A stretch of DNA of 64,000 nt from a virus, in IMG/VR virus record IMGVR_UViG_3300005663_000028, positions 115,554-179,553 of that record. One strand, 5' to 3'. Shown here in pieces: positions 9,112 to 50,898 of the stretch (position 1 is its first letter; the number at the start of each line of letters is the position of its first letter). Below the pieces are notes generated by a model, which saw only the letters and a list, made by a program, of their open reading frames with translations, searched no databases and was not told the origin of the DNA. Both the position numbers and the translations under genes were made by a program.

Positions 9112-9524
9112 TTTTGTTTCCTCTTTTCGAATACTGCATTGACTAGAGCATCCGCACGCTTGTTCTGGTTTCGTGGCACCCACTTAATTGTGTAATCTTC
9201 AAAGTGATCCAATAGTTTCAACACGTGATCTCTATGATCTATTAATTCTTGTTTCTTGGCCTTAAACGCTCCAGTAACTTGCTTAATGATTAACTGCGAG
9301 TCACCGATTATATAGATGATATCTACTCCAGCTTTGAGAGCACCTTGTAGGCCAGCAATCAAGGCTCTATACTCAGCCAAATTTGATGTACCTGTCCCAC
9401 AGGTTCTACTTCCAGATGCAAAAACTTCGGTTTCATCTTCTGGATTGCAGATATACCAACCATATGCCATCTGACCCTGTCGAATACCCCCATCGAAATA
9501 GAGTGTGGCACAGAATTCATTCAT
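9087..9524 (-). CDS. rnhA: Ribonuclease HI
   Basis: 145 aa. The four catalytic carboxylates of RNase HI are visible: D11 in YFDGG, E51 in NLAEYRA, D75 in IGDSQL and D125 in NKRADAL. It cleaves RNA in RNA-DNA hybrids and would remove the primers made by the primase. The ATG at 9524 overlaps the preceding stop (ATGA), and GGGGAA lies just upstream; an ATG at 9536 is possible. Confidence 0.93.
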   Translation of the reverse strand: MNEFCATLYFDGGIRQGQMAYGWYICNPEDETEVFASGSRTCGTGTSNLAEYRALIAGLQGALKAGVDIIYIIGDSQLIIKQVTGAFKAKKQELIDHRDHVLKLLDHFEDYTIKWVPRNQNKRADALVNAVFEKRKQKCPKKRKK

Positions 9525-9739
9525 AAAGTTCCCCATCTAATAACTTCCCCAGTAGAGTGATCAATAGGTTTTCCGAGAACGTGTGCTGCCCATTCCCGCT
9601 CCTCCCTGGTATATTGTTGACGTTCGCACTTTGTCCCTCTTCCCGCACAAATTTTTTCAGCCATATCCAAAATAAATGTTCGTCCAAAAACAGGACAGTT
9701 CATCAACCCAAGATTAAATGTGTCGTCAGTGACTTTCAA
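9521..9739 (-). CDS. Unknown small protein
   Basis: 72 aa. It contains REEREWAAHVLGKPID and ends VIRWGTL. No domain recognised. It overlaps the nuclease gene upstream and RNase H downstream by 4 bases each. Confidence 0.6.
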   Translation of the reverse strand: MKVTDDTFNLGLMNCPVFGRTFILDMAEKICAGRGTKCERQQYTREEREWAAHVLGKPIDHSTGEVIRWGTL

Positions 9740-20204: not shown

Positions 20205-20236
20205 AAATGTAAGGAAAACCATGGTTTTTTTCTTAC
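20205..20236 (-). terminator. Probable terminator after thyX
   Basis: GTAAG-AAAACC pairs with GGTTTT-CTTAC around an AT loop (20209-20236), followed on the minus strand by ATTTTTG. It overlaps the thyX stop codon. The stem is A/T-rich, so strength is uncertain. Confidence 0.55.
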
Positions 20237-23403: not shown

Positions 23404-23777
23404 ATTTTCTTTCCTTTATGCGAATATGCGAAACTAATACAAAACGAATCCACATTGGGAATAAACGGCAAAGCGAATATTTCTTTAGTTTTCTGATGTA
23501 AAATAACTTCTGACATCAAATGATCAATGAGTTGCCCCCGCTCTGTTGCTGTTTTTGTGTATTCAACGTTTAAAGAAATATGAGTAATTTGTCCATTTCC
23601 ATCAAACTCTTCTTGAAGAAAGAGTAGTTGTTTACGTCTACCTTTCTGAGTTTTTGCAAATTCCAAACAATAGATTTTAAAAGAATAATCATCTCCATAA
23701 TCTACTTCATAAGTTTCAACAACTTCACTACCTTGGATTTGAATTTTATTTGATTCCAGAAAGCTTTTCGTCAACAC
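23400..23777 (-). CDS. Unknown protein
   Basis: 125 aa. Predicted beta-rich (SEVVETYEVDYGDDYSF then QITHISLNVEYTK) with a helical segment between. No family recognised. It overlaps the BrxL-like gene by 7 bases, so the two are probably expressed together. Confidence 0.6.
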   Translation of the reverse strand: MLTKSFLESNKIQIQGSEVVETYEVDYGDDYSFKIYCLEFAKTQKGRRKQLLFLQEEFDGNGQITHISLNVEYTKTATERGQLIDHLMSEVILHQKTKEIFALPFIPNVDSFCISFAYSHKGKKI

Positions 23778-25240
23778 TTGACTTCTCCTTTTGTTATTTT
23801 GTACGGAAGCGTAACGCCCTTAAATTCGTTCGGTGAAATTATTGCTAACTGTTCCACCACACGACTCCTAAGACTAACAGCAATATCTAAAACAATTTTC
23901 AATTCACTCGACTCAACAGTATCAGAAGTTCTATGGGGAAATATCAGCTTCAACAACCCCGATCCAATCCGGACCAAAGACCTTTGATTCCGTTGAGACA
24001 TATCCCCAAAATCGACGTTACCCATTATAAGCGGAGCGTAGTTTCTATCTCTCATATGATGCATAATTTCACTGATATAATCGGCCATAAACCCTTCACC
24101 CTTAGCGAGCTTTGATTCACGAATCTGTGGGATGCGCCAACCTGGAATATACCCGTGTATTCTATCAAGGAAGGCTCTGTCTTGATTGATTACTTGGGGG
24201 AATGGGGAGAACAAACTGCGATATCTTACAGAGACTTCTCTTTTGTTGCGATCACAATCAATGTTGCCAGCAAACATAATGGAGCAACCGGAAGTAAATT
24301 CCGCTGTACCACGACCAAATCGCCCCGAATTCATAAAGTCCTTCAACATATCTATCAAGTCGCCTTGCCCAGACCACTTATTGGCCCCTCGACTACTAGC
24401 AAACTCATCGAACATAACTACATCTCGGTATCCAATGAGACCCAACTGTCGTCTCAGTTTGTCATAAAACAAGGATGCTACAGTAGTTTGACCACCAGAA
24501 ATAACAAAACTATAAGAACTGAGTGATTGATATGCAAATGTCTTTCCAGTCTCTGGTGGTCCCAGTTCTACAAGATTGACGTTGGGTTCAATAAACGGGA
24601 CCAATCTTGCTATGTATAACCACTTCTCCTCTTCAGAAAGATGATCCGGATCAAACCCAATGCTGGTAATCATCAAGTCCAACCATTCTTGGTCTGTAAG
24701 TTTAGCTCTACGTTCTATCCAAGTATCGACGTTGATTCCAGTAATTTGAATTGGCTTGAACTCGGTCAGTAAAAACGGATACAATTTGTTTCTCATCACA
24801 AACGAATCATCATAAATGATTTTGAAAACCCCCCAAGCCCCTGTCGTCAAGAGAGTCTCCCCGAATTCTGCGATAAGATAGGGGTCTATCCTTACGTATT
24901 GGTTCCCCAAAGCTGTGACATCACACCAATATTCATCTTTCGATTCATCATATCGACATCTGATTCGGCCAATGAGGGTGTATTCACCCTTCTCACGAAT
25001 TTGACTTTTCACCCAATCCTTCTGATCAGCTTCCATAAAATGCGAATCGAGAAGCTTACCAATTCTTTCCAACCCAGGAGTCGGATCGGTGGGGTCTACC
25101 ATTTCTGCAACAAGGAAATCTGCTACAAAACTTGGTAATTTTCTCCATTGTTCATTCAAGATTGTCAGACTTTTGTTTACAATTATTCCGCGATCTGGGA
25201 AAACAGTAGTTATTTTTGATCTTGTCTCAGTTTCGATCAT
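23771..25240 (-). CDS. BrxL-like AAA+ protein lacking the Lon protease domain
   Basis: 489 aa. The whole length follows the N-terminal and AAA+ parts of BREX-system BrxL: an N-terminal domain (LPSFVADFLVAEM, SQIREKGEYTLIGRI), the LVELGPPETGKT Walker A (227-234), the SGGQTTVASLFYD segment, DVVMFDEF Walker B (273-280), KDFMNSGRFGRG, MFAGNID and LDRIHGYIPGW. Full BrxL is longer because of a C-terminal Lon-like domain; here the protein ends soon after the AAA+ lid. BrxL forms MCM-like rings on DNA. No other BREX gene is in the window, so a phage replication or counter-defence role is inferred. Confidence 0.85.
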   Translation of the reverse strand: MIETETRSKITTVFPDRGIIVNKSLTILNEQWRKLPSFVADFLVAEMVDPTDPTPGLERIGKLLDSHFMEADQKDWVKSQIREKGEYTLIGRIRCRYDESKDEYWCDVTALGNQYVRIDPYLIAEFGETLLTTGAWGVFKIIYDDSFVMRNKLYPFLLTEFKPIQITGINVDTWIERRAKLTDQEWLDLMITSIGFDPDHLSEEEKWLYIARLVPFIEPNVNLVELGPPETGKTFAYQSLSSYSFVISGGQTTVASLFYDKLRRQLGLIGYRDVVMFDEFASSRGANKWSGQGDLIDMLKDFMNSGRFGRGTAEFTSGCSIMFAGNIDCDRNKREVSVRYRSLFSPFPQVINQDRAFLDRIHGYIPGWRIPQIRESKLAKGEGFMADYISEIMHHMRDRNYAPLIMGNVDFGDMSQRNQRSLVRIGSGLLKLIFPHRTSDTVESSELKIVLDIAVSLRSRVVEQLAIISPNEFKGVTLPYKITKGEVKC

Positions 25241-31181: not shown

Positions 31182-31420
31182 TTTTTCTTTCCTTCATTAG
31201 CTCTTTTTTCAATTTGTCTAATCTCTTCTTGTGAAAGATATTTGTAAGCAGCCATCCTTTGCTCTTTTGCATATTCTACTAAACTACCACAGCTAGCCCC
31301 ACCAAAAACACCTCTGACAAAAAGTTGTGTTCTTGCCGACAGATCGTCTGTATCGTATTTGTCTATAACGAATGTGGTGAATTCAGCTAATGCATAGGCT
31401 ATTTTATCGACAGACATCAT
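31178..31420 (-). CDS. Unknown small helical protein
   Basis: 80 aa, fully helical, ending in Lys-rich KRANEGKKK. No family recognised. The start (ATG at 31420 or 31417) overlaps the end of the GMP reductase-like gene. Confidence 0.55.
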   Translation of the reverse strand: MMSVDKIAYALAEFTTFVIDKYDTDDLSARTQLFVRGVFGGASCGSLVEYAKEQRMAAYKYLSQEEIRQIEKRANEGKKK

Positions 31421-32930
31421 TAATTGTCCCTTTTTGGTTTGTTATAGTAAAATCGACATTTGTTCGAAATTCATTAATATCAGAACATCCAGCATACGAT
31501 ATTCCCGACCTTAAAGAACCTGCATATCTTTTAAGTAACTTTTCTAATGATTCTCCTAGTGGAAGGTATTTTACGCAACCTTCCGGGGCGTCATTACTTA
31601 CTGAGCCTCTCCATTTTTCTTGTACTAATCTACTGGCCATTCCTGCATAGATTTTTTCTCCGTGTTCATTTAACAAGGCGGCACTTTCCGGGCATGAAGC
31701 AAAAATCTTACCAGCCATTACACTCGATGAGCCTGCGGCTATTGCCTTAACAAAGTCTGCTGGTTCCCTAATTCCTCCATCGCTAATTATTGGTAATCCG
31801 TAGGTTCTAGAGGCTGTTATACATTTCTGGATGGCTGAAAATTGTTTCTCCGTTACACCTGCCGTATTTTTGGTTTCACAAACAAATCCTTGTGCTATCC
31901 CAACCTTTACGGCCGATGCAAAGTCTGCGCTTTCTGCGAACAAACCTGGGTTAATTGTATTTCCAACTACGATATGAACGTTTGGTGCAAACTGTTTAAT
32001 TAGACGGCCAAGTTCTATAACAGGTTCACAATATCCATGCGCTACATCAATAAAAATAATATTAGCATTAGCCCGAATGAGCTTCTTGGCTAGATCAAAT
32101 TGTGAAACACCGATACCTACCGAAACCGCTACCCATCTGTTGTTTTTATGTATTTGGTTAGTCCATTTTTCCAACACGTTATCAGAAGAGGCCCTATGGA
32201 GAACCCCCATAGCTCCTAATTTTTCTAATAAAATACAAAATTCAGGGTTGGTTACAGTGCTCATGTTAGAAGCAATTAATGGAATATCTAATTCAACACC
32301 TCTTATTATTTCGGATACAATATTTACATTAGACCGTGATTGAACTACTGATTTTTTTTGAAGAATACTGACGTCTTCGAATCCGAGAGATATTGGTGTT
32401 GTCGACATTTTGATAGAGGGGTTAATAAAATATTCACAAGTACTATGGTCAAAATGAATAATACCCCGACCGACGAGATCAAAAGCAATTTTTTCCAATT
32501 TTGAATGTAATTTTCTATGGTTGGAATTACTTGATACGGCACAGAGGTTTGTCAATGAGTTATCGTCTTTTCGGCCGTTAATGTGGTGGATTATCCACCC
32601 ATTATCTATCAAATTAAACCCCGTGGTTTCTTCCATAACTAGATGGTGTTCCCCAATATAGCGTTTTCGTCTTTCATCCCAAATCATTATGTAATTACCA
32701 GGCTTACCGGCCTTGATTTTCCTACCGAATCTGGTTTTTATTTTTTGGTTGTCCCTGCTTCTGGAGCATGGTCCACACAAATCCTTTCCCCATTTTTCCC
32801 TAGAATCTTTGGCTTTTCTCCACTGTGGTTTACTTTCTGTCCCACAAGAGTCACATATCTTTAATACTAGGTATGTTCTCTTTAATGTTGAAAAGTCGTT
32901 TATTGTTTTATTATCAAGTGTTTTGATCAT
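31404..32930 (-). CDS. HNH endonuclease fused to GMP reductase/IMP dehydrogenase-like enzyme
   Basis: 508 aa. Residues 1-170 are an HNH domain: CDSCG and CGPC zinc pairs, then EHHLVMEE, HHINGRKDDNSLTNL and HRKLHSK. Residues 175-508 are a full TIM-barrel GMPR/IMPDH without CBS domains, starting LGFEDVSILQKKS, with SNMSTVTN, FIDVAHGY, and the active-site loop VGIAQGFVCETKNTAG (C351). GMP reductase is about this length. No ribosome site precedes M175, so one fused polypeptide is likely. Its ATG overlaps the stop of a 38-codon ORF that looks like another GMPR/IMPDH N-terminus. Confidence 0.85.
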   Translation of the reverse strand: MIKTLDNKTINDFSTLKRTYLVLKICDSCGTESKPQWRKAKDSREKWGKDLCGPCSRSRDNQKIKTRFGRKIKAGKPGNYIMIWDERRKRYIGEHHLVMEETTGFNLIDNGWIIHHINGRKDDNSLTNLCAVSSNSNHRKLHSKLEKIAFDLVGRGIIHFDHSTCEYFINPSIKMSTTPISLGFEDVSILQKKSVVQSRSNVNIVSEIIRGVELDIPLIASNMSTVTNPEFCILLEKLGAMGVLHRASSDNVLEKWTNQIHKNNRWVAVSVGIGVSQFDLAKKLIRANANIIFIDVAHGYCEPVIELGRLIKQFAPNVHIVVGNTINPGLFAESADFASAVKVGIAQGFVCETKNTAGVTEKQFSAIQKCITASRTYGLPIISDGGIREPADFVKAIAAGSSSVMAGKIFASCPESAALLNEHGEKIYAGMASRLVQEKWRGSVSNDAPEGCVKYLPLGESLEKLLKRYAGSLRSGISYAGCSDINEFRTNVDFTITNQKGTINDVCR

Positions 32931-33312: not shown

Positions 33313-33723
33313 TTAAAGTTTTATTTTTCTTACCAACGAATATTTCTTTTTGTCTGTTGGTTTCGGTTTGGGATTTTTGACGGCGTACTCGGATGCATAA
33401 TTTTTACCACCATGCCCTTCAACCACATTCAATACACTGTCTCCCGGTGCCGCTGCTGGTGCCCCCGCACACATTTTGAAAAATTGTTCTGGACTTATTA
33501 AGTCTATTCCTAAATATCGAGCAATTTTTGCCTTAGCAGACATGCTTGCCGGGTCAGCTATAACCAGTATAGTTGTTTTACTAGTTACTGTTTTGGTTGT
33601 TGACGCATTGGCAGCTACTGCTATGGCCTCCATTTCGCTACGAGGTTTAGGACTTTTACCTGTGAAGCAGAATATTGCTGGCTTTATGGCTCCAGTACTG
33701 TCATTCAAAAATTGCATTGGCAT
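33313..33723 (-). CDS. BRCT-domain protein
   Basis: About 136 aa. A single BRCT domain of the DNA-ligase type: IFCFTGKSPKPRSEMEAIA, then TILVIADPASMSAKAKIARYLGIDLISPEQF. The C-terminal 45 residues are basic and probably disordered. BRCT domains bind DNA ends or phosphoproteins; here it may serve replication or repair. No ligase catalytic domain is attached. Start is ATG 33723; an upstream TTG frame also exists. Confidence 0.83.
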   Translation of the reverse strand: MPMQFLNDSTGAIKPAIFCFTGKSPKPRSEMEAIAVAANASTTKTVTSKTTILVIADPASMSAKAKIARYLGIDLISPEQFFKMCAGAPAAAPGDSVLNVVEGHGGKNYASEYAVKNPKPKPTDKKKYSLVRKIKL

Positions 33724-33725
33724 TT

Positions 33726-33929
33726 CTATTCTGGTCCCCAACTGTATGACTTAAGAACCTTTCCATCTCTTTTAACCTCGAACGATCCACTACCATCTGC
33801 ATTTATAGTGGTTGAGGAGAATGTTCTCCAAGTATCCGCTTTACCCGTAGCCGATTGACTACCGAGTCTACTAGACCCTTTACACCTATTTGCATCATAT
33901 CCAAAAGCTCTTGCTCTACATTTAGCCAT
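33726..33929 (-). CDS. Unknown small protein
   Basis: 67 aa. Basic N-terminus (MAKCRARAFGYDANRCKGSSR), then beta strands (TINADGSGSFEVKRDGKVL). No family recognised. It lies between the BRCT and DUF1257 genes. Confidence 0.55.
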   Translation of the reverse strand: MAKCRARAFGYDANRCKGSSRLGSQSATGKADTWRTFSSTTINADGSGSFEVKRDGKVLKSYSWGPE

Positions 33930-33940
33930 AACAATTCTCC

Positions 33941-34357
33941 TTACCTATATCCAGTAATCTCAACCCTTTGGTGACCACTCTCAGGGCATCGCTCTCTAGT
34001 GACGGTCCGCCCCATCTCTTCTTGGTCTAGCTTCAGTTTATGAAACGCATAATTTTGCCTGAGTTGCCCAACCCATTTTGCCCCATACCTAGTGGAGTCA
34101 TATTCTGAGATAATGGCTTGATATGTTTCTTCTTCGGTTTTTGCGAAACCCAAATCATTAGACATGTCTCCGACATGTCTCTTTCGGATTATGATATGGG
34201 CCTTCTCTGCCCTCTCGTCATCTTTCCAGCCAACGAGAGACTGAGGGGTAGCATGTACCTCTATTTGGTCGAGGCTCCACTTACCAGTTTCCATTAAAGC
34301 AGCGACTAATGCTGTTTTGTCGGTAAAAACGGTCTTTACTATGCAATATCTTGACAC
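33941..34357 (-). CDS. DUF1257 / Ycf35 family protein
   Basis: 138 aa from a GTG at 34357 with GGAG seven bases upstream. It has VKTVFTDKTALVAALME, IEVHATPQSLVGW, AHIIIRKRHVG, SNDLGFAKTEEETYQAII and YGAKWVGQLRQNYAFHK, the full-length DUF1257 (Ycf35) pattern. Ycf35 is conserved in cyanobacteria, plastids and many bacteria and often neighbours DUF2997 and Ycf46-like AAA+ genes. Its biochemical role is unknown. Confidence 0.87.
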   Translation of the reverse strand: MSRYCIVKTVFTDKTALVAALMETGKWSLDQIEVHATPQSLVGWKDDERAEKAHIIIRKRHVGDMSNDLGFAKTEEETYQAIISEYDSTRYGAKWVGQLRQNYAFHKLKLDQEEMGRTVTRERCPESGHQRVEITGYR

Positions 34358-34358
34358 G

Positions 34359-35390
34359 TTATTCTCCTTGGTTTTTGAGGTACCGGGCTCTTGCAAAAGC
34401 ATTTAGGGGTGGAATTACCACCCCATTACATTCACAATTATTCTGTAATTCTCCACAGTCTGAGCAAAATGAGTCATCGCAACGACAGGGATAAAAATCA
34501 CAATCACCACACCATTCGTCGTCGTCATTATCATTCCATTTCTTTATCCCCGCACGAGGGTACCATTTACAGACAGTGGAATCATTTTGAAGGACATCAC
34601 CGCATCTGCACCTACGTGGAGATACCACTTTGGGATCGTCAGGACAGACACAGTCGAATCCGTGGCAATCTTCACATAGTTCGTCGCAGATACACACATC
34701 TTCGAGACAAACATCGCACCAAGGATCATTTTCATCACTGTCGTCTAGACAATCGGTACACCATACCTCTCCCTTTTCACGATCCATAATACCACAAAGA
34801 TTGCACCCGGCGTTATCTTTGTCGAGCCCGCATAAACATTGACAATGAACATCGTCTACGAAACCACAATCACAGTCAAGGAAATCATCTAGACAGCTTT
34901 TACAGATGAATCTGCCGTCAGTTGTTTTCCTTGCAATACTACAAACGGAACATCCCCTACCCTCACAGCAGTCACTTACGCTATCACTACATTCGATACA
35001 ACAATCATTGTCTTCGTCACAGAGACAGTCACAATCATGGTCACTATTGTGACCCGAGCAATCAATGAATCTTTGGTGACATTTATCGCATGTGTCGTCT
35101 GCTATACATTCTTCGCATAGTTTTTTGTTACCATCAGCCAAACTTCCGTTACAATCGACACAAGTTCCTCGATAGACTTCGTCAGCATCAGCTTTGCACT
35201 GATCATCTTGACTACATTCGGGACACTCACATCGACCAGCCATAAACTCGTTAATACTGGTCAATAAATCATGGATCGCTATCGCGTCGGGAGTGTTGAC
35301 CCCTTCTGATGTGCGAATCCAACCGTGGTCCCATATTCTTTGGAATTCCTGAAATAAAGACGTCGCTACTTGAATATTACTTTTTACCAT
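34359..35390 (-). CDS. Extremely cysteine- and aspartate-rich protein
   Basis: 343 aa. After an ordinary helical start (1-50), nearly every line has CxxC or CxC pairs (for example CECPEC, CDKCHQ, CLCDEDNDCC, CICDELCEDC). Cys and Asp together make up a large share of residues 53-325, implying many zinc or other metal ions. The protein is not obviously one known family; RING-like or ferredoxin-like repeats are possible. It adjoins DUF1257 directly and lies two genes from the AAA+ gene, so it may belong to that set. Confidence 0.7.
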   Translation of the reverse strand: MVKSNIQVATSLFQEFQRIWDHGWIRTSEGVNTPDAIAIHDLLTSINEFMAGRCECPECSQDDQCKADADEVYRGTCVDCNGSLADGNKKLCEECIADDTCDKCHQRFIDCSGHNSDHDCDCLCDEDNDCCIECSDSVSDCCEGRGCSVCSIARKTTDGRFICKSCLDDFLDCDCGFVDDVHCQCLCGLDKDNAGCNLCGIMDREKGEVWCTDCLDDSDENDPWCDVCLEDVCICDELCEDCHGFDCVCPDDPKVVSPRRCRCGDVLQNDSTVCKWYPRAGIKKWNDNDDDEWCGDCDFYPCRCDDSFCSDCGELQNNCECNGVVIPPLNAFARARYLKNQGE

Positions 35391-35401: not shown

Positions 35402-35662
35402 TTAAAGTTCCGAGGGTTTTTGAAATTTACGTGGTTTAGGATTTTTGTTTTCCCATTGTAGTAAGCCTGTTTTTATTTCTGCCTCCATTTGTTCTTTTAG
35501 TTTTTGAACTATTTTTAATCTTTGTTTATGCTTTTTATCATCCCATTTAACAAACTCTGATGTGAGCTTTTTCTTTCCGTTACAGTACCCACACCGTACA
35601 GAGCGGTGCCCCAACCTTGTTTTTCCTTGTCCGTAACACTCGGGACAATTCCTAATTTTCAT
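35402..35662 (-). CDS. Small zinc-finger protein (DnaJ-like)
   Basis: 86 aa. N-terminal CPECYGQGKTRLGHRSVRC then GYCNGKK gives one zinc site; the remainder is a basic helix. It overlaps the DUF3150-like gene by 4 bases. Confidence 0.6.
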   Translation of the reverse strand: MKIRNCPECYGQGKTRLGHRSVRCGYCNGKKKLTSEFVKWDDKKHKQRLKIVQKLKEQMEAEIKTGLLQWENKNPKPRKFQKPSEL

Positions 35663-36651
35663 AATATGATCCTTCGTTTGAGTTCCCCAAGGAACCCACC
35701 TGCATTTTCACCCTCTGCCGCCGCCTTTTGTCTAATCGAGTTTAGCGCATTTGTTACTCCATCCTGCACTGTGGTTGATTCGAAATCTTCAGGAGATGCT
35801 GTAGAGTCCAGAAACATTTCGCTAAACTCTGTGAGCATTTTTTCTATGTCTTGGTCTTCAAAGATATTCATCTTCCGGAAACGATCGACGTACTTGCGAT
35901 AGCTGGTAATTGACCTAGCTGTTAGTTTCTTGCTCTTCTCCTCATCCTTGTAAGGTTGGCCACTGACACGGGCGGTCATCATGTCACAGAATTCGATCGT
36001 TTCTTGTCGCATGGCGGCTACATATTCGCCTACGAATTTCTCCACCTCTTTCTGCATTTGTTGTCGAAGTTCTTTTTCTCGTTCTATCTGGATTTTTTGT
36101 TTCGCCGAAACTTCCTCGACTGTGGTTTCTTGGATTGATCCAATCCCAGCTATTTGGAACAAATACCAATCGAACTTATATCGCTTTCTGAGGTGCTTTG
36201 TGCTTGCCGGGTAGTTTCCCTTGAGACATTTTTCCCAAAAATCAGGATGATCCTCCTTTATTTTACCAACGGTGTCGTCGAATCTGACCATGAAGCTGTC
36301 TACCCTATTGAAAAATTCCTCTTTGAGGTCTTTCAACTGTTGCTCTACGGTAGTTAGAATGTTGTTCGGTACAAAATGGGCGCTAGCCACGCAAAACGGG
36401 ATTGACCATTGTTCCAGAATCTTCCTTGCTTTTTGACTTATCTGGTCAAAGGCTTGAAGCTCTTCCTTTGGCACCATTAATTTTCTGCCGAGGTTGACTA
36501 TGTCGCTTGGAAGATTCTCTTGGTTTTCATATCCCATCTTGACGAGGTCTGCTCGTGTTAGCATTTTGCGTCCGCTCCACACCCCTATCTTAAGATTGAC
36601 GAGTGTTCCAAGTTCAAACAGATTGATTGTGTTTTTGTCTGTCGTTGTCAT
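35659..36651 (-). CDS. DUF3150-like protein
   Basis: 330 aa. The opening ELGTLVNLKIGVWSGRKML, the later LGRKLMVPKEEL, and the long central coiled coil (about 105-140, 180-225) resemble DUF3150 proteins of plasmids and integrative elements, which also sit beside AAA+ ATPases. The match is from memory and moderate. It lies directly downstream of the Ycf46-type AAA+ gene and may be its partner. Confidence 0.6.
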   Translation of the reverse strand: MTTTDKNTINLFELGTLVNLKIGVWSGRKMLTRADLVKMGYENQENLPSDIVNLGRKLMVPKEELQAFDQISQKARKILEQWSIPFCVASAHFVPNNILTTVEQQLKDLKEEFFNRVDSFMVRFDDTVGKIKEDHPDFWEKCLKGNYPASTKHLRKRYKFDWYLFQIAGIGSIQETTVEEVSAKQKIQIEREKELRQQMQKEVEKFVGEYVAAMRQETIEFCDMMTARVSGQPYKDEEKSKKLTARSITSYRKYVDRFRKMNIFEDQDIEKMLTEFSEMFLDSTASPEDFESTTVQDGVTNALNSIRQKAAAEGENAGGFLGELKRRIIL

Positions 36652-36660
36652 TTTTTTATC

Positions 36661-38244
36661 CTAGTTTGAGTTAGGGTCTCCATTACTCAATACAATTTTT
36701 CTACCTTCTGCTTTTGGTTGAGGATTCTCCTTATGGGGATTTGCGGGCTTCGCGTGTTTTTTGCACCACATTCTTATTGAACCAATACGATCCGATTCAG
36801 TTACTGATAGTGGTATAATTTCTCCTATTGCTTGTATCAGGTGTTTTTGCTTAAGCTTTTTATCATTTCCAAATGCTATCTTTAAGGACACCTTAACTAT
36901 TTGTTCTATATCGGCTCCCGTACACCCAGGAGTGGCAATTGCCAGTTTTGTAATATCTAAATCTTTTGATATTTTATTTCTTTTGGAAAGATGGATATTG
37001 AATATTTCTTGACGCTCTCCTTCGCTCGGCAGGTCTAATCCAAAAATTTCATCGAACCGCCCTTTGCGACAAAATTCTGGAGGCAGTGACTGGACCTGAT
37101 TAGCTGTCGCTATTACATAGACAGGGGATGTTTTATCATTTAGCCATTTCAGAAATATTCCAAAGACCCTACGAGAAGAACCTCCATCTGAATCTCCGGT
37201 TCCTCCGAAGCCTTTTTCTATCTCGTCCAAAACAAGTACACAAGGAGCGATAGTCTCAAGCATCCTGATAGCATCTCTCATATTAGACTCTGATTCCCCA
37301 ACATACTTATTCATAATACTACCAACGTCGAGCGAAATAAGTGGTAAGCCAAGTTCAGAAGCAACGGCCAGAGAGAGTAATGTTTTTCCACAGCCAGGAA
37401 TACCGACGAGCATCAATCCTTTAGGAAACTCAATACCAAAATCCCTTGCCTCTTGGGTGAAGCAGGGTTGATCTAATCGAATGTGTTGTTTCAACGCTTC
37501 ATAACCACCAACACTATCTAAACCACCTTCTGGGGGTTCTATGTAGGTAAGCAACCCAGACGCACGAATTATGGCAGCTTTTTCCCTAATTATTGTTTGG
37601 ACTGCATCGACATTCAGGTCTTTATGTTTTCTCAACGCCAACGCAACTCTGTCTGCCACCTGCTGAGTAATCATTCCTTGACACGCATCGATAATTTGTG
37701 GTAAGATTTCTGGATCGGGTTCAAATTTACCCCCGTCTTCTGTTTCCACACTACGACATACATAAGAGATTCGTTCTGCTATCTGCTTTTTGTCTGGTAG
37801 ACTGAATTCAATAGTTGTTATGTCATGAAGTAACTGTTTGGGTACATGGAAATCCGGTCCGACGAAAACGATGGTTTGTTCTACGGACGATATTATTTTG
37901 CGCAGATCATCTAAATATCCTATGGCCATGTCGTGTTTTGAGTACTTGCCTTGTTGTAGATAGAGTCCAAAATCTCTTAAAACACAAACGGTTTTCTCTG
38001 GGAACCCAAGAATTGCTGGTAAATGATCCTCGACGGGCACCTTCGACTTAGGAGCCCCGCTTACCGCTATTCCTCCTTCGTCAATCCATCCCTGGGAGAT
38101 GGACCACACAAAGACTTTCCTGTCAATTTCTGCCGCCGCCTCTGCAATTTCAGCAATAGCCCTGTCTTTTTCAAAGGTATCTACATTCAACAAAGCATGA
38201 CCCGAAAGTATGTAATCGATAAGGTCTTCTTTGAAATTTCCCAT
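36661..38244 (-). CDS. Ycf46-type AAA+ ATPase
   Basis: 527 aa. The N-terminal domain (1-235) has the Ycf46 features VFVWSISQGW, CVLRDFGLYL, TIVFVGPDFHVP and the following all-helical part. The AAA+ core has GIPGCGKT (281-288), Walker B CVLVLDE (D340, E341), a GRFDEIF box and sensor 2 helix. Ycf46 proteins are conserved in cyanobacteria and plastids, function largely unknown. Here it heads a unit with DUF3150-like, zinc-finger, Cys-rich and Ycf35 genes. Confidence 0.88.
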   Translation of the reverse strand: MGNFKEDLIDYILSGHALLNVDTFEKDRAIAEIAEAAAEIDRKVFVWSISQGWIDEGGIAVSGAPKSKVPVEDHLPAILGFPEKTVCVLRDFGLYLQQGKYSKHDMAIGYLDDLRKIISSVEQTIVFVGPDFHVPKQLLHDITTIEFSLPDKKQIAERISYVCRSVETEDGGKFEPDPEILPQIIDACQGMITQQVADRVALALRKHKDLNVDAVQTIIREKAAIIRASGLLTYIEPPEGGLDSVGGYEALKQHIRLDQPCFTQEARDFGIEFPKGLMLVGIPGCGKTLLSLAVASELGLPLISLDVGSIMNKYVGESESNMRDAIRMLETIAPCVLVLDEIEKGFGGTGDSDGGSSRRVFGIFLKWLNDKTSPVYVIATANQVQSLPPEFCRKGRFDEIFGLDLPSEGERQEIFNIHLSKRNKISKDLDITKLAIATPGCTGADIEQIVKVSLKIAFGNDKKLKQKHLIQAIGEIIPLSVTESDRIGSIRMWCKKHAKPANPHKENPQPKAEGRKIVLSNGDPNSN

Positions 38245-40878: not shown

Positions 40879-41538
40879 CTAGTCAATCATTTTCTCTCTG
40901 GTTTCGTAGTAGTCGCATTGTGAGAAATGTTTGTATGGAGATTCACCCAATGGGCACCAATGTATTATTCCGTTTTCGTCGACAAACATATTGTCGTTCA
41001 TAGCGTTGTCACACATAGCTACGTCTTGATATTTGCTTGGCACGTTGTTATCATACGCCCTACCAACTAATACAATGTTCAGACCCAAGTCCCCAGCGAA
41101 TTGCACAAAAATACGATGCTTATGTTTGAATGATTGTTTTAGTTTTTCAAAAGCTTCTTGTCCGTATCCATCTTTGGAATGAAATTGTGATTGAGATATT
41201 CTAATGGTAATATTTTGAGTATCTAAGCTCAAAATAACACGAACAAATTCATCAAGGGTTGCTTTTTGTTTTACGAATACACCATTTGTCATTATGCCTC
41301 CCTGATAATGGCCTTGAAAGGTGTTTCTCATTAGATCGCCGTAATTCGGAATTAAAGATACTTCTCCACCCATTACGGATATATTTGAATCCACTCCTTT
41401 AGGTAACCATTCATTTAATTGTTGGGACATCTTTTCCGTCATGTGGGTCTTATTTGATGGGCCAGACCTGAACATGCAATGATCACACGTCTCGTTGCAA
41501 AAGTTCGTTAATCTGATCGTTGTTTCGTGTTTGGACAT
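40879..41538 (-). CDS. Radical SAM protein
   Basis: 219 aa. The 4Fe-4S motif CNETCDHC (C14, C18, C21), the GGE (57-59) and a shortened barrel are present. The C-terminus has Cys residues (VAMCDNAMN, HWCPLG, FSQCDY) like a reduced SPASM domain, suggesting a second cluster and a peptide substrate. No obvious precursor peptide gene adjoins, although the 36-aa ORF downstream is worth checking. Confidence 0.85.
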   Translation of the reverse strand: MSKHETTIRLTNFCNETCDHCMFRSGPSNKTHMTEKMSQQLNEWLPKGVDSNISVMGGEVSLIPNYGDLMRNTFQGHYQGGIMTNGVFVKQKATLDEFVRVILSLDTQNITIRISQSQFHSKDGYGQEAFEKLKQSFKHKHRIFVQFAGDLGLNIVLVGRAYDNNVPSKYQDVAMCDNAMNDNMFVDENGIIHWCPLGESPYKHFSQCDYYETREKMID

Positions 41539-43022: not shown

Positions 43023-43682
43023 CTACTTCGCTCCCATTTCATTTGTAAGCAAATTCAAATCGATTTCTTTATCAAGCTCGCAACCTCTCAGCCACTTGGC
43101 GAATTGTGCAACTCTTAATCCCGCTGAAACGTTTGCGCAGTAAATGGTTGTCTTAGCCGTACACGACCCATTGTAAGTTTCTGCTTGTGGGAAAAATGTT
43201 GTGCCGTAGTGCTCTCGTGAAGTGTCATCATAGACGATGAATATTCTCATATATTCAGCGCTCATCCTGGCATCTATAAATAAGTCTGCTCGTTCTTTTA
43301 CGGTTTCGAAAATTGATTTTCTGGTGGAAATTTTATCTACACAACAAAATAGTACACCCCCAGTGAAGTCCATTGATCGGAACTTACGGTTGACGGTAGT
43401 TATTTCAATTGCGGGGTTGATAGCAGCACAAATATCCTTGACTGCATCTACTTTGAATTTTCCGAGATCGGCTTCGTGATATCCTTGACAAGCAAGATTC
43501 TCTACAGAAACTAAATCGAAGTCGATAAGCCGTAGTCGTGGCACTCCAATAGCTGCCAGTTGAAGTGCCACTTGTCTTCCTCCTGCACCGACACCAACTA
43601 TTGTGGCTCTAATAGCGGATAGTTTATCTGGTGGTATTAATTCTTTTTGTCTGATGTCTCTATTTTTTAGCAGATTTTCCAT
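43023..43682 (-). CDS. E1-like ThiF/MoeB family adenylating enzyme
   Basis: 219 aa, a single Rossmann adenylation domain. It has the GVGAGG nucleotide loop (30-35), the LIDFDLVSVENL strand (D54, D56), the Arg-containing QGYHEADLGKFKVDA region and DxxSTR-like VDKISTRKSIFE. C174 in NGSCTAK is the likely catalytic Cys. E1/ThiF proteins adenylate the C-terminus of a Ubl protein and pass it to Cys or sulfur. In the same window lie a beta-grasp Ubl, an E2-like protein and a JAB peptidase. It lacks UBA-like or second repeats. Confidence 0.88.
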   Translation of the reverse strand: MENLLKNRDIRQKELIPPDKLSAIRATIVGVGAGGRQVALQLAAIGVPRLRLIDFDLVSVENLACQGYHEADLGKFKVDAVKDICAAINPAIEITTVNRKFRSMDFTGGVLFCCVDKISTRKSIFETVKERADLFIDARMSAEYMRIFIVYDDTSREHYGTTFFPQAETYNGSCTAKTTIYCANVSAGLRVAQFAKWLRGCELDKEIDLNLLTNEMGAK

Positions 43683-43689
43683 GGTTTTC

Positions 43690-43720
43690 TACTCCTTTTG
43701 TGTATAATAAGGTTGGAGGA
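43690..43720 (+). promoter_or_regulatory. Plus-strand promoter for the HNH gene
   Basis: TATAAT (43703-43708) followed by AAGG, the same -10 flank as the main phage motif, just upstream of GGAGG and the ATG at 43727. The expected start site gives a very short leader. Confidence 0.5.
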
Positions 43721-43726
43721 AAGGTT

Positions 43727-44365
43727 ATGAAATATTCGAAAGCCCAACAAAGTCGCGTAGATAAGGGGTTGTGCGCTAAATGTGGGGAGCCCACTGATCA
43801 TACTGTTTATTGTTCCAAATGTACTAGAGTGTGTACTGAATACAATAGACAGAGAAGGGCCAAGCGACGAGAGTTGGGAATATGTTATACGTGCGGAAAC
43901 AGTACGGAAAATAATCGTGCGTATTGTCCAGAGTGTCTAAAAAAGGCTCGTAAATATAGAACTGCTTACAAATTGAAGGCTCCATACGGTGTTTGTGTTA
44001 TTTGTCGTGTGGAATCATGCCTGCCATCATTAGTAGACGCAACATTATATCGGCGAATTTGTCAGAACTGTTATCTTAAAAACGCGTCCTGTTCACAATT
44101 AGGGTCGGTTGAATACTGGAAGCAATTGCTTTGTAAACTAGAAGCCCAACAATTTCGTTGTGTATATTCTGGAGATGAACTTATATTGGGAGTTAACGAT
44201 TCCATGGATCATATTTATCCAAAATCTAGGTATCCTGACAAAGCCCTAGACCCATCTAATATCCAATGGGTTACTCGCACAGTCAATATGGCTAAGGGGT
44301 GTTTAGATCATGATGAGTTTTTAACCCTAATTCGCCGTATCAACAACCGTTTTCCAAAAGACTAA
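43727..44365 (+). CDS. HNH endonuclease on the plus strand
   Basis: 212 aa. N-terminal zinc pairs (CAKCGE, CSKC, CYTCGN, CPEC) lead to an HNH domain with SMDHIYPKSRYPDKALDPSNIQWV and later NMAKGCL. It has its own promoter and interrupts the E1-JAB gene order in opposite orientation, so it looks like a recent mobile insertion in the Ubl cassette. Confidence 0.85.
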   Translation: MKYSKAQQSRVDKGLCAKCGEPTDHTVYCSKCTRVCTEYNRQRRAKRRELGICYTCGNSTENNRAYCPECLKKARKYRTAYKLKAPYGVCVICRVESCLPSLVDATLYRRICQNCYLKNASCSQLGSVEYWKQLLCKLEAQQFRCVYSGDELILGVNDSMDHIYPKSRYPDKALDPSNIQWVTRTVNMAKGCLDHDEFLTLIRRINNRFPKD

Positions 44366-44430
44366 TCCTCTTCTGTGTTCATGATTAGTTTTCGTTGACG
44401 AATATCCCTATCTTCAATAACTGAAGTCAT
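44362..44430 (-). CDS. Mini-ORF
   Basis: A 22-aa ORF (MTSVIEDRDIRQRKLIMNT then EED) with GGAG upstream, starting 3 bases after the preceding stop and ending convergently within the HNH gene stop. It may be a small gene or chance. Confidence 0.35.
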   Translation of the reverse strand: MTSVIEDRDIRQRKLIMNTEED

Positions 44431-44432
44431 AC

Positions 44433-44609
44433 TTAATCTCCATAAAACCCTAACGTTGCTGAATTAGTTCTAGCCCAGCTTTTTTCTTCTGTTGTCGCCT
44501 TTACTCCATCTATGATGTCTCTAATTTGCAATTCTAATTCTGTCATATCTCGCGGATCGATCCTAACCATTTCGTTTTGTATTTTTTCGATTTTTTGTTC
44601 TGCATTCAT
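44433..44609 (-). CDS. Unknown small acidic protein
   Basis: 58 aa. Starts MNAEQKIEKIQNEMVRID; helical; ends NSATLGFYGD. Its ATG overlaps the stop of the JAB gene (ATGA), so it is probably part of the cassette transcript. Confidence 0.6.
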   Translation of the reverse strand: MNAEQKIEKIQNEMVRIDPRDMTELELQIRDIIDGVKATTEEKSWARTNSATLGFYGD

Positions 44610-45529
44610 TGTGCTGCCCTCATTATATCCAATCGTTCATCGGCATTGTCAGCCGCCCAGGTTTCCATAATTCTGGTGATTCTTGCTGTTGGTTTATTAA
44701 CTGGCATACCATCTTTGAACCACGTTTTGGTAATCGGGTTATAACTGTACCAAAAATTATCTTCAGGGTTCCAGCATTCAGCATCTCCGTCTGCAAGCCA
44801 ATAACAATCATAGTCATTGTCGTCGTAAAGGTAGTCGTTATTGTCGTTGTCAGAATGACAACTGATAATGTCCAGAGAATCGGAGGGTACCGATTCTCGG
44901 TTTTCCATATAGTAATCAAGCCAATTATCGTCATCGTCTAGAAATTGAGTTCCTCTATTAACAAGGGGTTTGTTAAAGGCTGAACAGAACTCAATTTCGG
45001 TGACTTTGTCTTTGTATTCCTTTTCCCATTCTTCTTTATTCGAACCCTGAAAGGGCTCTGACCAATCAATCTCTATCGGTAGTTCTTTGATTATACCAGG
45101 GCCAATGTTTACCTTTAGTCTACAATAGGTTGCACCTCCATTGGCTATGATGAACATGACTGCCCAATGTGGATGGGAGAAGGCGTTTCTGAAGTTGTTC
45201 TCGTCTGTTGGGGAGGGTTGTGGGCAATTTGCCGGATGGGAATGTGCGAGAATATTTAGACATTGCCACGAAGCAAGTCCAGCGTCTACCATGCGTTCCC
45301 CAAAATCAGCCAAATCTTCGGGGTCCATGTCGAATGATACACTTGTGCATTTTTGTTTGATCAATGCGAAGTCGGTTACTAATAGCGGGTCTTCTGTGCC
45401 AGTTATGCAATAACCGGCAACTTCTGTCGACCCCCTATTCCGCATCCACAAAAGCTTAGCGTAAGCATACGCGGAGAAACGCAATGCGTTTCCGAAGGTC
45501 ATCTTTGGTTCCATAAAATTGTTAGACAT
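44606..45529 (-). CDS. JAB/JAMM metallopeptidase (deubiquitinase-like)
   Basis: 307 aa. The JAMM site is complete: E36 in STEVAGY, and the HSHPANCPQPSPTD run with H96, H98, S106 and D109. JAMM enzymes cut isopeptide bonds of ubiquitin-like proteins or trim Ubl precursors. Residues 180-260 are Asp-rich, and the C-terminus is helical. Gene order with E1-, E2- and Ubl-like genes argues for a Ubl pathway rather than the tail-associated JAB/NlpC peptidase of lambda-type phages. Confidence 0.87.
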   Translation of the reverse strand: MSNNFMEPKMTFGNALRFSAYAYAKLLWMRNRGSTEVAGYCITGTEDPLLVTDFALIKQKCTSVSFDMDPEDLADFGERMVDAGLASWQCLNILAHSHPANCPQPSPTDENNFRNAFSHPHWAVMFIIANGGATYCRLKVNIGPGIIKELPIEIDWSEPFQGSNKEEWEKEYKDKVTEIEFCSAFNKPLVNRGTQFLDDDDNWLDYYMENRESVPSDSLDIISCHSDNDNNDYLYDDNDYDCYWLADGDAECWNPEDNFWYSYNPITKTWFKDGMPVNKPTARITRIMETWAADNADERLDIMRAAQ

Positions 45530-45538
45530 TTTTGTTTC

Positions 45539-45622
45539 CTAATTGTGAACGTACAACAAAAATTCAAGAAATGCATTAAGCATTCCAGCCATCATAAACA
45601 AAAAACTTACGAATCCTACCAT
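45539..45622 (-). CDS. Tiny membrane peptide
   Basis: 27 aa, almost entirely one hydrophobic helix (MVGFVSFLFMMAGMLNAFL then EFLLYVHN). GGAG is eight bases before the ATG, which follows the E2-like stop by a base. It could anchor a neighbouring protein. Confidence 0.4.
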   Translation of the reverse strand: MVGFVSFLFMMAGMLNAFLEFLLYVHN

Positions 45623-45623
45623 T

Positions 45624-46907
45624 TCATACTCCTGTTCCCGCTAGTATACAATAATGTTTGTCGTCGCATTTCTCGCACGATGAAACACCACAGTAAAGAC
45701 ACCTGTTAATACAATTACTGCAAGTCGTTTTACTGCAATCACCGCAAGTGTCTTCACAATTTGGACAGAGGTAATCTTCGCACACGCTACACTTCGGAGC
45801 ACCATCTACACAGTCGTCGCATATAGTTGAACTGCAATCGGCACAATTATTAGAACATTCGATGCAATGTTCTCTGTCTTCGTCACATATTTCACACGTT
45901 CTTATGCACGAACCGCAATGAATGTTCGTGCATAGGTTGCATGTATTAGCACAAGAGATACATAAGCCCTCATTACACTCATCACAAGATGTACTACATT
46001 CGTCACATCGCCAATTACCACAATCTTCGCAATAGACCATTTCTGCGCAATGGTCACATAGGCCGGTGTAACATTCTTCACAATAGATTGATTGTTCTTC
46101 GGATATAGATTCGTTACATGAATCACAACTGAGTTGATTTTCTTTGTACCAATACCGAAGTTTCTCATGGGGGAATTCGTCGTTATATGTTCGCATGATT
46201 GCTTCAACAGTTGAGAAGTAGTACTCAAGCGACCCATGGTTTAGTGCATTTGTCAGAGTTTCTTCCCCTTCTTGACCTTCGCAAAGTTTTTCGTTTAATA
46301 CGTGTGGGTGGGTAAGACCTTTGTTGCTTGATTGAACATTGTCGATAGATTCAATTGTTAATCCATCTTGTGGACATTGAATGTCTAGCTGCAACCAAAA
46401 GCCCCCTAATTCAACCTCCTCATTCCCGTCTTCCAAACACACATCGTTGATTTTGACATTTAGCCATCCATTCCTAAATATGACCTCAGACCATTGAGTG
46501 TTGATAGCTGTGATTTCTTCGATTGCTTCTTTCATAGTAAGCGGAACCATTGATTGGTCTGTTGCCCATATTTTCACATTTGCAGCTACCCTTGCCAACA
46601 TAGTCTCTACATCTCTTCCCAACTCAGGTAACATGGAGTCGACTATGTTTTGGTAAACGCCTGGGGTTACTATACCAATATATTCTTCGGTCCACTCTCC
46701 ACTCTCATTGTCGATAACATGGGTCGACTCCTGGGTTCTGGGTATCCCACTCAAACGGTAGATTTTTTCCCACTTAGCCATTTCCTGAATTTTTTGCTCC
46801 ATACCTTGGAGATAATGACTTATTCTGTCGCTAGGTGGGGTGGCCGCTTGTTCTACCATCCAATTTTTGTATGCTAGGGCAGCACGACGTACAAGTTTAT
46901 CATTCAT
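45624..46907 (-). CDS. E2-like (UBC-fold) protein with cysteine-rich tail
   Basis: 427 aa. Residues 1-130 are helical. About 135-255 reads like an E2: strands (GFWLQLDIQCPQ), then THPHVLNEKLC, equivalent to the HPN...G-x-C signature with catalytic C209, then NHGSLEYYFSTVEAIM and TYNDEFP. Residues 261-420 hold about 20 CxxC pairs in tandem (CDSC, CEEC, CDHC, CEDC, CDEC and so on), a RING- or treble-clef-like zinc array. An E2 fused to a possible E3-like tail would transfer the Ubl from the E1-like protein to targets. The E2 call is by motif only. Confidence 0.7.
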   Translation of the reverse strand: MNDKLVRRAALAYKNWMVEQAATPPSDRISHYLQGMEQKIQEMAKWEKIYRLSGIPRTQESTHVIDNESGEWTEEYIGIVTPGVYQNIVDSMLPELGRDVETMLARVAANVKIWATDQSMVPLTMKEAIEEITAINTQWSEVIFRNGWLNVKINDVCLEDGNEEVELGGFWLQLDIQCPQDGLTIESIDNVQSSNKGLTHPHVLNEKLCEGQEGEETLTNALNHGSLEYYFSTVEAIMRTYNDEFPHEKLRYWYKENQLSCDSCNESISEEQSIYCEECYTGLCDHCAEMVYCEDCGNWRCDECSTSCDECNEGLCISCANTCNLCTNIHCGSCIRTCEICDEDREHCIECSNNCADCSSTICDDCVDGAPKCSVCEDYLCPNCEDTCGDCSKTTCSNCINRCLYCGVSSCEKCDDKHYCILAGTGV

Positions 46908-47188
46908 TAGGATTCATCCACGAACAAGTGTTTAATTTGATCCCATGGATACCATTCATCTCCAATGTAAATACCGAGACCCTGTTCATGCATGAATCCC
47001 AGTATGTTTTGTGCGGTTTCGTCGCCGTCATCCATTACCCTGCTCAGGGCTTCCATATCGCTATCTGGCATAGAGTCCCACACATTGGAATATGTTTGTC
47101 CGTGATCATCATAGATGCGATACCCAAATGTTTCATTACCATATGGATGGTTGATGAAGATGGTGGGTTGTAGTGTGATTCTATTCAT
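46907..47188 (-). CDS. Unknown protein in the Ubl cassette
   Basis: 93 aa. Acidic, mixed alpha/beta (ETFGYRIYDDHGQTY, then DEWYPWDQIKHLF). No family recognised. It lies between the Ubl and E2-like genes and overlaps the E2-like ATG by one base. Confidence 0.6.
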   Translation of the reverse strand: MNRITLQPTIFINHPYGNETFGYRIYDDHGQTYSNVWDSMPDSDMEALSRVMDDGDETAQNILGFMHEQGLGIYIGDEWYPWDQIKHLFVDES

Positions 47189-47230
47189 TTAATCTACCCA
47201 ATCTCGACTTAGGTCCATAACCAACCGCTT

Positions 47231-47281
47231 AGTAAAAGAAAGGGGGCCGGGGAGATTCCCCGACCCCCATTTTCTTTTACT
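47231..47281 (-). terminator. Strong terminator after the Ubl gene
   Basis: G/C-rich stem 47242-47252 with 47258-47268 (one mismatch), extended by AGTAAAAGAAA / TTTTCTTTTACT flanks. The minus-strand side after the stem is TTTCTTTT. It partly separates the Ubl gene from the rest of the cassette. Confidence 0.85.
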
Positions 47282-47520
47282 TATTCACCTTCGATTTTTT
47301 TCGGCGTCAATGAGACCCGATCCTCATTTTGCAGAACATAGTCCTCATACGCTTCAATTGAGGTTCCATTCGCTCGAATCCGAATAAGAAACTCATCAGG
47401 ATCCCCGTTAAACGACACCTCAAGAAACTTCTCCAGAGTTGTGTTAGGGACCACGGGAATCCGAACAGGGATTCCACCATCAGCATTACTTACCAAGGTT
47501 ACTTCAATCATACCTTCCAT
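47281..47520 (-). CDS. Beta-grasp ubiquitin-like (MoaD/ThiS-type) protein
   Basis: 79 aa. Beta-grasp order: IEVTLVSN and PVRIPVVPN strands, the helix TTLEKFLEVSF, IRIRANG, then YVLQNEDRVSLTPKKIEGE. The last segment is the classic MoaD/ThiS/Ubl ending (GDRV-x-x-x-P-x-x-x-G). The C-terminus is GE rather than GG, so it may be used as is, trimmed by the JAB protein, or inactive. AGGAG lies before the ATG. It is the first gene of the cassette. Confidence 0.72.
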   Translation of the reverse strand: MEGMIEVTLVSNADGGIPVRIPVVPNTTLEKFLEVSFNGDPDEFLIRIRANGTSIEAYEDYVLQNEDRVSLTPKKIEGE

Positions 47521-49818: not shown

Positions 49819-50898
49819 TTAGTTCTCCTTTAGAACATTTTTATGCGGGCGAATTTGTTTCATTATATATTCTTCGACTCTTCTGTGGTTACCATCAAAT
49901 ATGGCGAACATTGCTAACTGGTGTTTCATCTCCTTAACTAAATTCGCAAAAGCTGCTCGCCCTGACAGGTTAGGAACTGTACTGACTTTACCCAGAACTG
50001 ACAAGAATTGTTTTTTAATCTCAAGAAGCAAAGTCATATATTCAAGTTCGAGGGAGGCGGCCAATCTGTCAAGTTCATTGTGATAATCTACATCAACAAC
50101 TCTCCACATAACCTCTGGAACCAGACCCGTAACCATCGTATCCCAAACACCGAGTGGAGTTAGGTCCGCTAACAAATTGCTCCGTCTAAGATAATCTTTA
50201 GATTTGATTTTTACCCGTAGACCGTTTGTGAATCTAACTATGAATCCCTCAAGTTCACTACCTGGAATCGTCTTGATTTGTCCACGGCAGTACCCAAGAT
50301 AAGTTTGATCATATGATTCCGCCAGTGTGAACCCGAACTGCCTACCCCATAACTCAACTCGTTCCCAACAATATTCTACCCCAGTGTGGCGATTATATGC
50401 CCCCAATAAAATTAAATCCTCCCGATTGCCGTAATCCACGACTATCCGGGTAGCAGGACAGATAAGTTCAAATAACAATGTTACTTCGTCTGGCAAACCT
50501 GTAAGGTCATATTTTTTCAAGAATTCTGTTGCCCAAACGGCGCCAATGCTCTTAAATGACCCCCTGGTGGCGATTTTGTGTTGATTATCGTGACGATATA
50601 GAATCCCAAGCCATCCATCTTCTTTACGGAAGAGTCTGAATCCATCTTTCCATGGAAGGTTATGTTCCTGAGTTTCCTTTGTTTGGTTCGTATTGAAAAA
50701 CTTTGGAAATGCCCTTGCGACGACCTCCCCTGTTTTTCTATTAAGAATGATTCCCCTACTGTTTAGGATGATGTCATCCCATTTTTGGGTTTTGTTGACG
50801 TATGAGTAAACCCTCAGATCGCCCAAGTCGTCGCATCTGAGTAGTTTCTGTTTAACCAATTGATCTCGTTGTTCGACTTCTTCTTTTGTGACCCTCAC
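49819..50898 (-). CDS. RNA ligase, T4 Rnl1 type
   Basis: 359 aa from a GTG at 50898. Nucleotidyltransferase motifs: I RKEDGWLG (adenylated K92), IIIa LLFELICP, IV ELEGFIV, V VKIKSKDYL. T4 RnlA seals tRNAs cut by host anticodon nucleases after end-healing by Pnkp. A 5' kinase (55.2 kb) and tRNA genes nearby fit the same pathway. Confidence 0.9.
   Translation of the reverse strand: MRVTKEEVEQRDQLVKQKLLRCDDLGDLRVYSYVNKTQKWDDIILNSRGIILNRKTGEVVARAFPKFFNTNQTKETQEHNLPWKDGFRLFRKEDGWLGILYRHDNQHKIATRGSFKSIGAVWATEFLKKYDLTGLPDEVTLLFELICPATRIVVDYGNREDLILLGAYNRHTGVEYCWERVELWGRQFGFTLAESYDQTYLGYCRGQIKTIPGSELEGFIVRFTNGLRVKIKSKDYLRRSNLLADLTPLGVWDTMVTGLVPEVMWRVVDVDYHNELDRLAASLELEYMTLLLEIKKQFLSVLGKVSTVPNLSGRAAFANLVKEMKHQLAMFAIFDGNHRRVEEYIMKQIRPHKNVLKEN

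Follow-up and report, generated by a model that had tools for sequence, protein, structure and literature searches.

A candidate ubiquitin-like conjugation cassette shared by phage genomes and planctomycete chromosomes

We examined a 64,000-nt window of viral DNA (positions 115,554-179,553 of virus record IMGVR_UViG_3300005663_000028, which totals 179,553 bases) that carries a cassette of four genes resembling a ubiquitin-like (Ubl) protein conjugation system. The window is the end portion of a 179.5-kb tailed-phage record with its own terminase, located at G000:32972-34201 of the record and 125 kb away from the cassette, and DnaB, UvsX/RecA, RNR and ThyX are encoded in the window itself. On the evidence of the terminase and these replication and nucleotide genes, the record is a phage. 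All four cassette open reading frames (ORFs) were verified on the minus strand at the coordinates given in a preliminary description of this DNA. In order, they encode a 79-aa precursor of a ThiS/MoaD-type beta-grasp modifier (the Ubl, 47281-47520), a 427-aa E2-like protein (45624-46907), a 307-aa JAB/JAMM peptidase (44606-45529) and a minimal 219-aa ThiF-family adenylyltransferase (the E1, 43023-43682).

The E1 matched Pfam ThiF (E=4e-24) and consists of a Rossmann-type adenylation domain in which the R, D, K and D residues of the superfamily are present. R11, R36, D54, D56, N62, K77, D116 and C174 were invariant in 26/26 homologues, which bears out the earlier call of an E1-like ThiF protein with C174; as the predicted catalytic Cys of a thioester-forming E1, this residue fits the pattern of the ThiF/E1 superfamily. 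The peptidase matched Pfam Prok-JAB (PF14464) at 25.2 bits (cut-off 25) and has a conserved W..Y.P....W C-terminal region. Its metal-site residues E36, H96, H98, S106 and D109 (E...HxH...SxxD) were identical in 31/31 sequences, in agreement with the complete JAMM peptidase previously described. Selection was measurable only where synonymous divergence (dS) was not saturated, as it was for pairs involving the window; between loci L034 and L035, both enzymes were under purifying selection (nonsynonymous divergence, dN, 0.16 and dS 1.2 for the E1; dN 0.24 and dS 1.4 for the JAB).

Single-sequence Pfam and library searches recognised the E1 and the JAB, not the Ubl or the E2-like protein. Within the Ubl family, 15 of the 23 aligned members from phages and metagenome-assembled genomes (MAGs) matched Pfam ThiS, all weakly (best 1.1e-5) and the window member not at all, and L63 and G78 were invariant in 23/23. 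The relatives thus uphold the MoaD/ThiS-type beta-grasp assignment of the protein ending in KKIEGE. G78 is never terminal: residues follow the Gly in all 23 of these precursors and also in 19 planctomycete Ubls, with a single residue in the window (C-terminus P-K-K-I-E-G78-E79), 2-36 in planctomycete copies with a readable motif and up to 82 in L015. Because every Ubl carries a tail after the conserved Gly, a processing peptidase is called for, and the tail is as expected of a precursor that would be matured by the JAB. The best PDB match of the Ubl profile was SAMP2 (5lda_B, E=0.023) and the JAB profile weakly matched JAMM1 (5lda_A); these are partners in one solved complex (5lda), and their fit to a Ubl-JAB pairing is suggestive only. 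A synapsin match of the Ubl was judged to be due to chance. The Ubl of L015 (L005) is fused to a domain that forms a separate ORF in L004. Tandem Ubl domains in a single ORF were seen in L030, L034 and L035 only; these loci also have a second E1 upstream of the main cassette, and L030 a second JAB and Ubl as well.

The E2-like protein comprises a helical N-terminus, a UBC-like core (residues 121-262; 46122-46547, minus strand) and a Cys-rich tail (45663-46127, minus strand). The HP[NH] motif of E2/UBC proteins and a downstream catalytic-type Cys are present, as H200, P201, C209 and G211 were invariant in 25/25 members and H202, the last residue of HPH 200-202, in at least 90%. When the family was compared with nine planctomycete UQ_con E2s (A10), hhalign returned Prob 80.6 over 112 collinear columns with E=1.3e-5, a value that refers to one single comparison. 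The alignment paired HPH with HPN, Cys with Cys and a shared YN..SP..W motif, and two unrelated comparisons run as controls gave Prob 0.2. After planctomycete members were added, Prob was 82.3 over a shorter stretch of 54 columns. AF2 modelled the whole protein with pLDDT 86 and pTM 0.50. Foldseek results for this model were dominated by zinc fingers (the best matches were PHD, LIM and FYVE, not significant by E-value, with a probability of 0.92 for FYVE), and the core was therefore modelled alone. This gave pLDDT 92.8, pTM 0.86 and the element order alpha, four strands, active-site segment, two helices; a BFVD search returned three matches <0.001, all to unnamed viral proteins. We regard homology of the 45624-46907 protein to E2s as likely, not proven.

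The tail of this protein contains 39 Cys and 19 CxxC in repeated units and is predicted to bind zinc in the treble-clef manner. Four planctomycete UQ_con E2s (L115-L118) have a similar Cys-rich tail with 11 CxxC; in three cases, the fetched stretch also contains a ThiF homologue. In L006/L007, the Cys-rich tail of the E2 runs on in another frame (L007:8295-9260 and 9055-9633), which would reflect a frameshift, a split gene or an assembly error.

The four genes stay together in viral relatives. A Ubl scan identified five related contigs, each with Ubl-E2-JAB-E1, and an E1 profile alone identified 29 viral contigs, three of which end too near the E1. In the remaining 26/26, E2, JAB and E1 occur in this order on the same strand with the Ubl upstream (recognised by clustering in L041). 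Three near-duplicate pairs leave about 23 distinct contigs, and the loci, having been found via E1 patterns, sample the relatives of the window E1 rather than all phage ThiF genes. As the order is kept in these 26 contigs and in planctomycete chromosomes, chance is excluded, and the co-occurrence that the preliminary description had named as a test of its proposal is observed. Single-sequence scans of viral contigs and phage tblastn with the E2 and JAB returned nothing; the relatives were found by the Ubl and the E1 profile. Terminase was detected in 8/23 of the relatives' records, and because these records are of several lengths, more than one phage lineage carries the cassette. Six MAGs also had hits. 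The E1 tree leaves many of its inner branches open. It puts the window into a clade of 14 rows, 13 phage and one MAG (SH-aLRT 96); a separate clade (100) holds most planctomycete copies, and phage rows are interspersed in both regions.

A record whose title reads Candidatus Heimdallarchaeota chromosome also contains a close phage-type cassette (L044). An Asgard host was considered and set aside, as L044 nests inside the phage clade and phage sequence in the assembly is the simpler account; L044 is likely integrated or mis-assembled phage sequence. Among named phages, crAss-like cr128_1 (L128), Dulem virus 41 (L129) and Flavobacterium phage Fpv3 (L131) have an E1 homologue behind a JAMM-motif ORF and an H-S-H...C ORF, and in Xanthomonas phage PhiXhv-15 (L130) the E1 is preceded by an HPH...C ORF whose end is Cys-rich. 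The crAss-like and Flavobacterium phages have a true E1 homologue and the JAMM motif, but hhalign gave no support for homology of their E2 and Ubl (2% and 0.5%). It is possible that these phages, of which two have a named laboratory host, carry a divergent version of the cassette, and we note them as a lead.

Beyond viruses, 17/392 Planctomycetota genomes matched at E<1e-30, and one planctomycete has six cassette copies on an 8.3-Mb contig. Ubl-E2-JAB-E1 was present in 19/20 fetched planctomycete stretches and an AAA+ gene lay upstream in 14/20. From clustering and Pfam, the usual order is DUF1257, DUF2997, AAA+, DUF3150-related, small ORFs, Ubl, E2, JAB, E1, with the DUF1257-type gene first in the operon. 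The DUF3150-related protein stood beside AAA+ in 14 stretches; the label denotes similarity to the phage family, and the only copy tested had no Pfam match. Recombinase- or transposase-like genes, recognised by eye, lie near some of the stretches. Some operons have a conserved protein between DUF2997 and AAA+ (L090:3027-3812 and relatives) that appears TOPRIM-like by eye and has no Pfam match.

Three of these companions have homologues on the minus strand of the window: an AAA+ ATPase (36661-38244; Pfam AAA, 4e-31), found in 15 of the 33 loci clustered, an adjoining DUF3150 protein (35659-36651; PF11348, 1.4e-23) and a DUF1257 (Ycf35-type) protein (33941-34402; PF06868, 2.3e-9). A radical SAM protein (40879-41538, minus strand; Pfam Radical_SAM, 6e-7) belongs to a family present in seven loci and is an optional companion. 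The system is larger than four genes and not phage-only. The self-contained phage system first proposed is therefore right in placing the cassette in a phage and too narrow in limiting it to four genes, given the AAA+, DUF3150, DUF1257 and, in some loci, radical SAM genes. Two radical SAM ORFs (L003:12617-13381 and L005:12340-13122) share an in-frame TAG at one codon that is Trp (TGG) in homologues; the frame is otherwise open, and both phages use TAG as an ordinary stop too.

Along with the four genes, whose membership held, the cassette region contains three ORFs that the preliminary description did not list. A 93-aa ORF between the Ubl and E2 genes (46907-47188, minus strand) has a homologue at the same place only in L004 (53% identity) and had no family match in library scans. 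The JAB stop is overlapped by a 58-aa ORF (44433-44609, minus strand) with no homologue among the first relatives compared; its CDC48_N match (E=0.012) was judged to be chance. An opposite-strand ORF (43700-44365, plus strand) interrupts the cassette and shows, by eye, a zinc-ribbon-like CxxC and an HNH-like stretch, with no significant Pfam match; clustering placed related ORFs in six loci, and it probably lies outside the cassette proper. Elsewhere on the minus strand, the window encodes a T4-type RNA ligase upstream of the cassette (49819-50898), a BRCT-domain protein near the DUF1257 gene (33313-33741), an N-terminal HNH endonuclease domain on an IMP dehydrogenase/GMP reductase domain (31404-32930), a BrxL-like protein, a BREX-type component (23771-25240; Pfam BrxL_ATPase, 6.5e-104, and BrxL_N), and ThyX with a LAGLIDADG insertion that is probably an intein (20233-22050).

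Judged by its sequence features, the cassette probably makes up a ubiquitin-like protein conjugation system that is self-contained and reversible. Conjugation is supported by the finding that no rhodanese or sulfur genes adjoin the cassette, and by the AAA+ and DUF3150 relatives that accompany it in phages and bacteria. Several results weigh against it. A separate E3 was not identified, and none of the 25 E2 family members matched Pfam or NCBIfam, UQ_con and Prok-E2 at E<=0.1 included. Foldseek comparison of the E2 core with the PDB gave no significant match (the best E2 was Cdc34, TM 0.39, E=2), and PDB profile searches with the core gave a chance match only. In the window, a gap of about 5 kb with intervening genes separates the AAA+ gene from the E1, so that a shared pathway is not required. 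Of the original E2 proposal, HPH...C209, the Cys-rich tail and a profile likeness to UQ_con stand and a Pfam match is missing; the UBC-like fold is seen in the AF2 element order and not in a significant Foldseek match to an E2 in the PDB.

The same E1 and Ubl could instead serve a sulfur carrier, in which the E1 thiocarboxylates the Ubl to provide sulfur for a cofactor, tRNA or nucleotide, the JAB acts in maturation only and the E2-like protein is a scaffold. ThiF-type sulfur E1s also have a conserved Cys, and the Ubl is nearest ThiS and the E1 nearest ThiF/MoeB. Sulfur operons with JAB, ThiS and E1 are known (PMC1779556, row 4e). However, every cassette with flank includes an E2-like protein with an invariant H-P...C, among the genes adjoining the cassette we saw none for a rhodanese, a sulfotransferase or a cofactor, and the Ubl has a single Gly plus a tail, not Gly-Gly. 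We consider sulfur transfer improbable. Even less credible is a function in virion or tail maturation like that of the lambda TAPI/TAPK Ubl-JAB pair, although phage Ubl-JAB pairs are known (PMC1779556) and a PHROG tail protein weakly matches the JAB (E=0.003): TAPI/TAPK-type pairs are without E1 and E2, the terminase is 125 kb from the cassette, and bacterial chromosomes have the gene set without a phage.

Under the conjugation reading, the JAB would cut the Ubl precursor behind Gly78, and the E1 would adenylate the Ubl Gly and bind it to C174 in a thioester. From there, the Ubl would move to C209 of the E2-like protein and onto an amine of the target; the Cys-rich zinc tail would serve as substrate or E3-like module. 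The JAB would take the tag off again, and the AAA+, DUF3150 and DUF1257 proteins would act downstream, probably remodelling tagged proteins. What we infer is the chemistry of each step, the presence of zinc, the link to AAA+ and the targets: the JAB, E1 and E2 steps because they are the established chemistry of their families, and the roles of the zinc tail as E3-like module and of AAA+ as remodeller as guesses from context. The tagging and removal system put forward in the preliminary description is supported: the genes, their order, conservation, catalytic residues and homology hold, and conjugation is the part that we still infer.

Known systems share portions of this design. UBA5-UFC1-UFM1 also has a minimal homodimer-type E1 and a single C-terminal Gly exposed by processing, with a Cys protease where the cassette has a JAB; the match of the E1 profile to UBA5 (5e-17) is confined to the adenylation core. 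Type II CBASS Cap2/Cap3 has E1, E2 and JAB activities, and the window E1 and JAB partially match CBASS models, but here the E1 and E2 are separate, a Ubl is present and there is no Cap2-type E1-E2 fusion. BilABCD, a bacterial ISG15-like conjugation system with anti-phage activity, likewise has four genes for Ubl, E2, JAB deconjugase and E1, and its Ubl, BilA, needs the JAB to expose the Gly (PMC11354881). In contrast to the window proteins, BilA has two Ubl domains rather than one of 79 aa, BilD, a two-domain pseudodimer, includes a Cys domain where the window E1 is a single 219-aa domain, and BilB has C..E.H..H after the Cys rather than HPH before it; PADLOC gave no Bil-type match for the window cassette. 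Type 6d of Iyer 2006 (PRTRC-like) has separate genes for JAB, E1, E2 and a Ubl with a conserved C-terminal Gly (PMC1779556). Its E2, however, is without the His before Cys that is present here as HPH, its JAB has an extra N-terminal domain, a helical protein is added, and no Cys-rich E2 tail is described for it; the PRTRC ThiF model scored the window E1 at 28.6 bits, below the cut-off of 144.75. Within Planctomycetota, tri-ligase Ubl systems (Kaur 2020; PMC7159879) likewise combine E1, E2 and JAB with a zinc-finger E3, but their RING E3 is a gene of its own and their Ubl is fused to the E2. Each of Bil, Iyer 6d/PRTRC, type II CBASS and tri-ligase differs from the cassette in a tested feature; the cassette appears to work like a Ubl conjugation system without being a member of any of them.

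The most likely setting for such tagging, though weakly supported, is conflict or takeover among planctomycete-type hosts, phages and integrated elements. The cassette might be a carried anti-phage weapon that, in the manner of BilABCD, tags the proteins of rival phages or elements and leads to superinfection exclusion. BilABCD has the same four activities (PMC11354881), and planctomycete copies lie near recombinases or transposases with up to six per genome; against this, a defence-family search gave only partial E1 and JAB domain matches and no effector was identified, and we hold the idea tentatively. Host takeover or counter-defence deserves a similarly guarded place: the phage would tag or strip host proteins, perhaps neutralising host Ubl systems of the same kind. 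Planctomycetes carry homologous systems that a phage copy could subvert, and the cassette lies outside the structural genes, amid small early-type ORFs, but the planctomycete copies show that the system has a function without the phage. More speculative, and in our view unlikely, is an autonomous viral Ubl pathway in which the E2-zinc-finger fusion would be a combined E2/E3 and a dedicated AAA+ ATPase would receive the tagged proteins, as in a small-scale ubiquitin-Cdc48-like route, in the conflict between phages, integrated elements and planctomycete-type hosts.

No description of a phage Ubl cassette of this kind was found in the open-access literature, a search that did not cover subscription papers, including the Burroughs 2011 survey. 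Bacterial E1-E2-JAB-Ubl operons have so far mainly been known as bacterial and often anti-phage. Here, the complete set is stable in the genomes of at least two phage lineages as well as in planctomycete chromosomes, and it comes with an unrecognised family of probable E2s and with AAA+ companions. As a compact four-gene system, the cassette is expressible and testable, and it raises the question of what phages gain from ubiquitin-like tagging.

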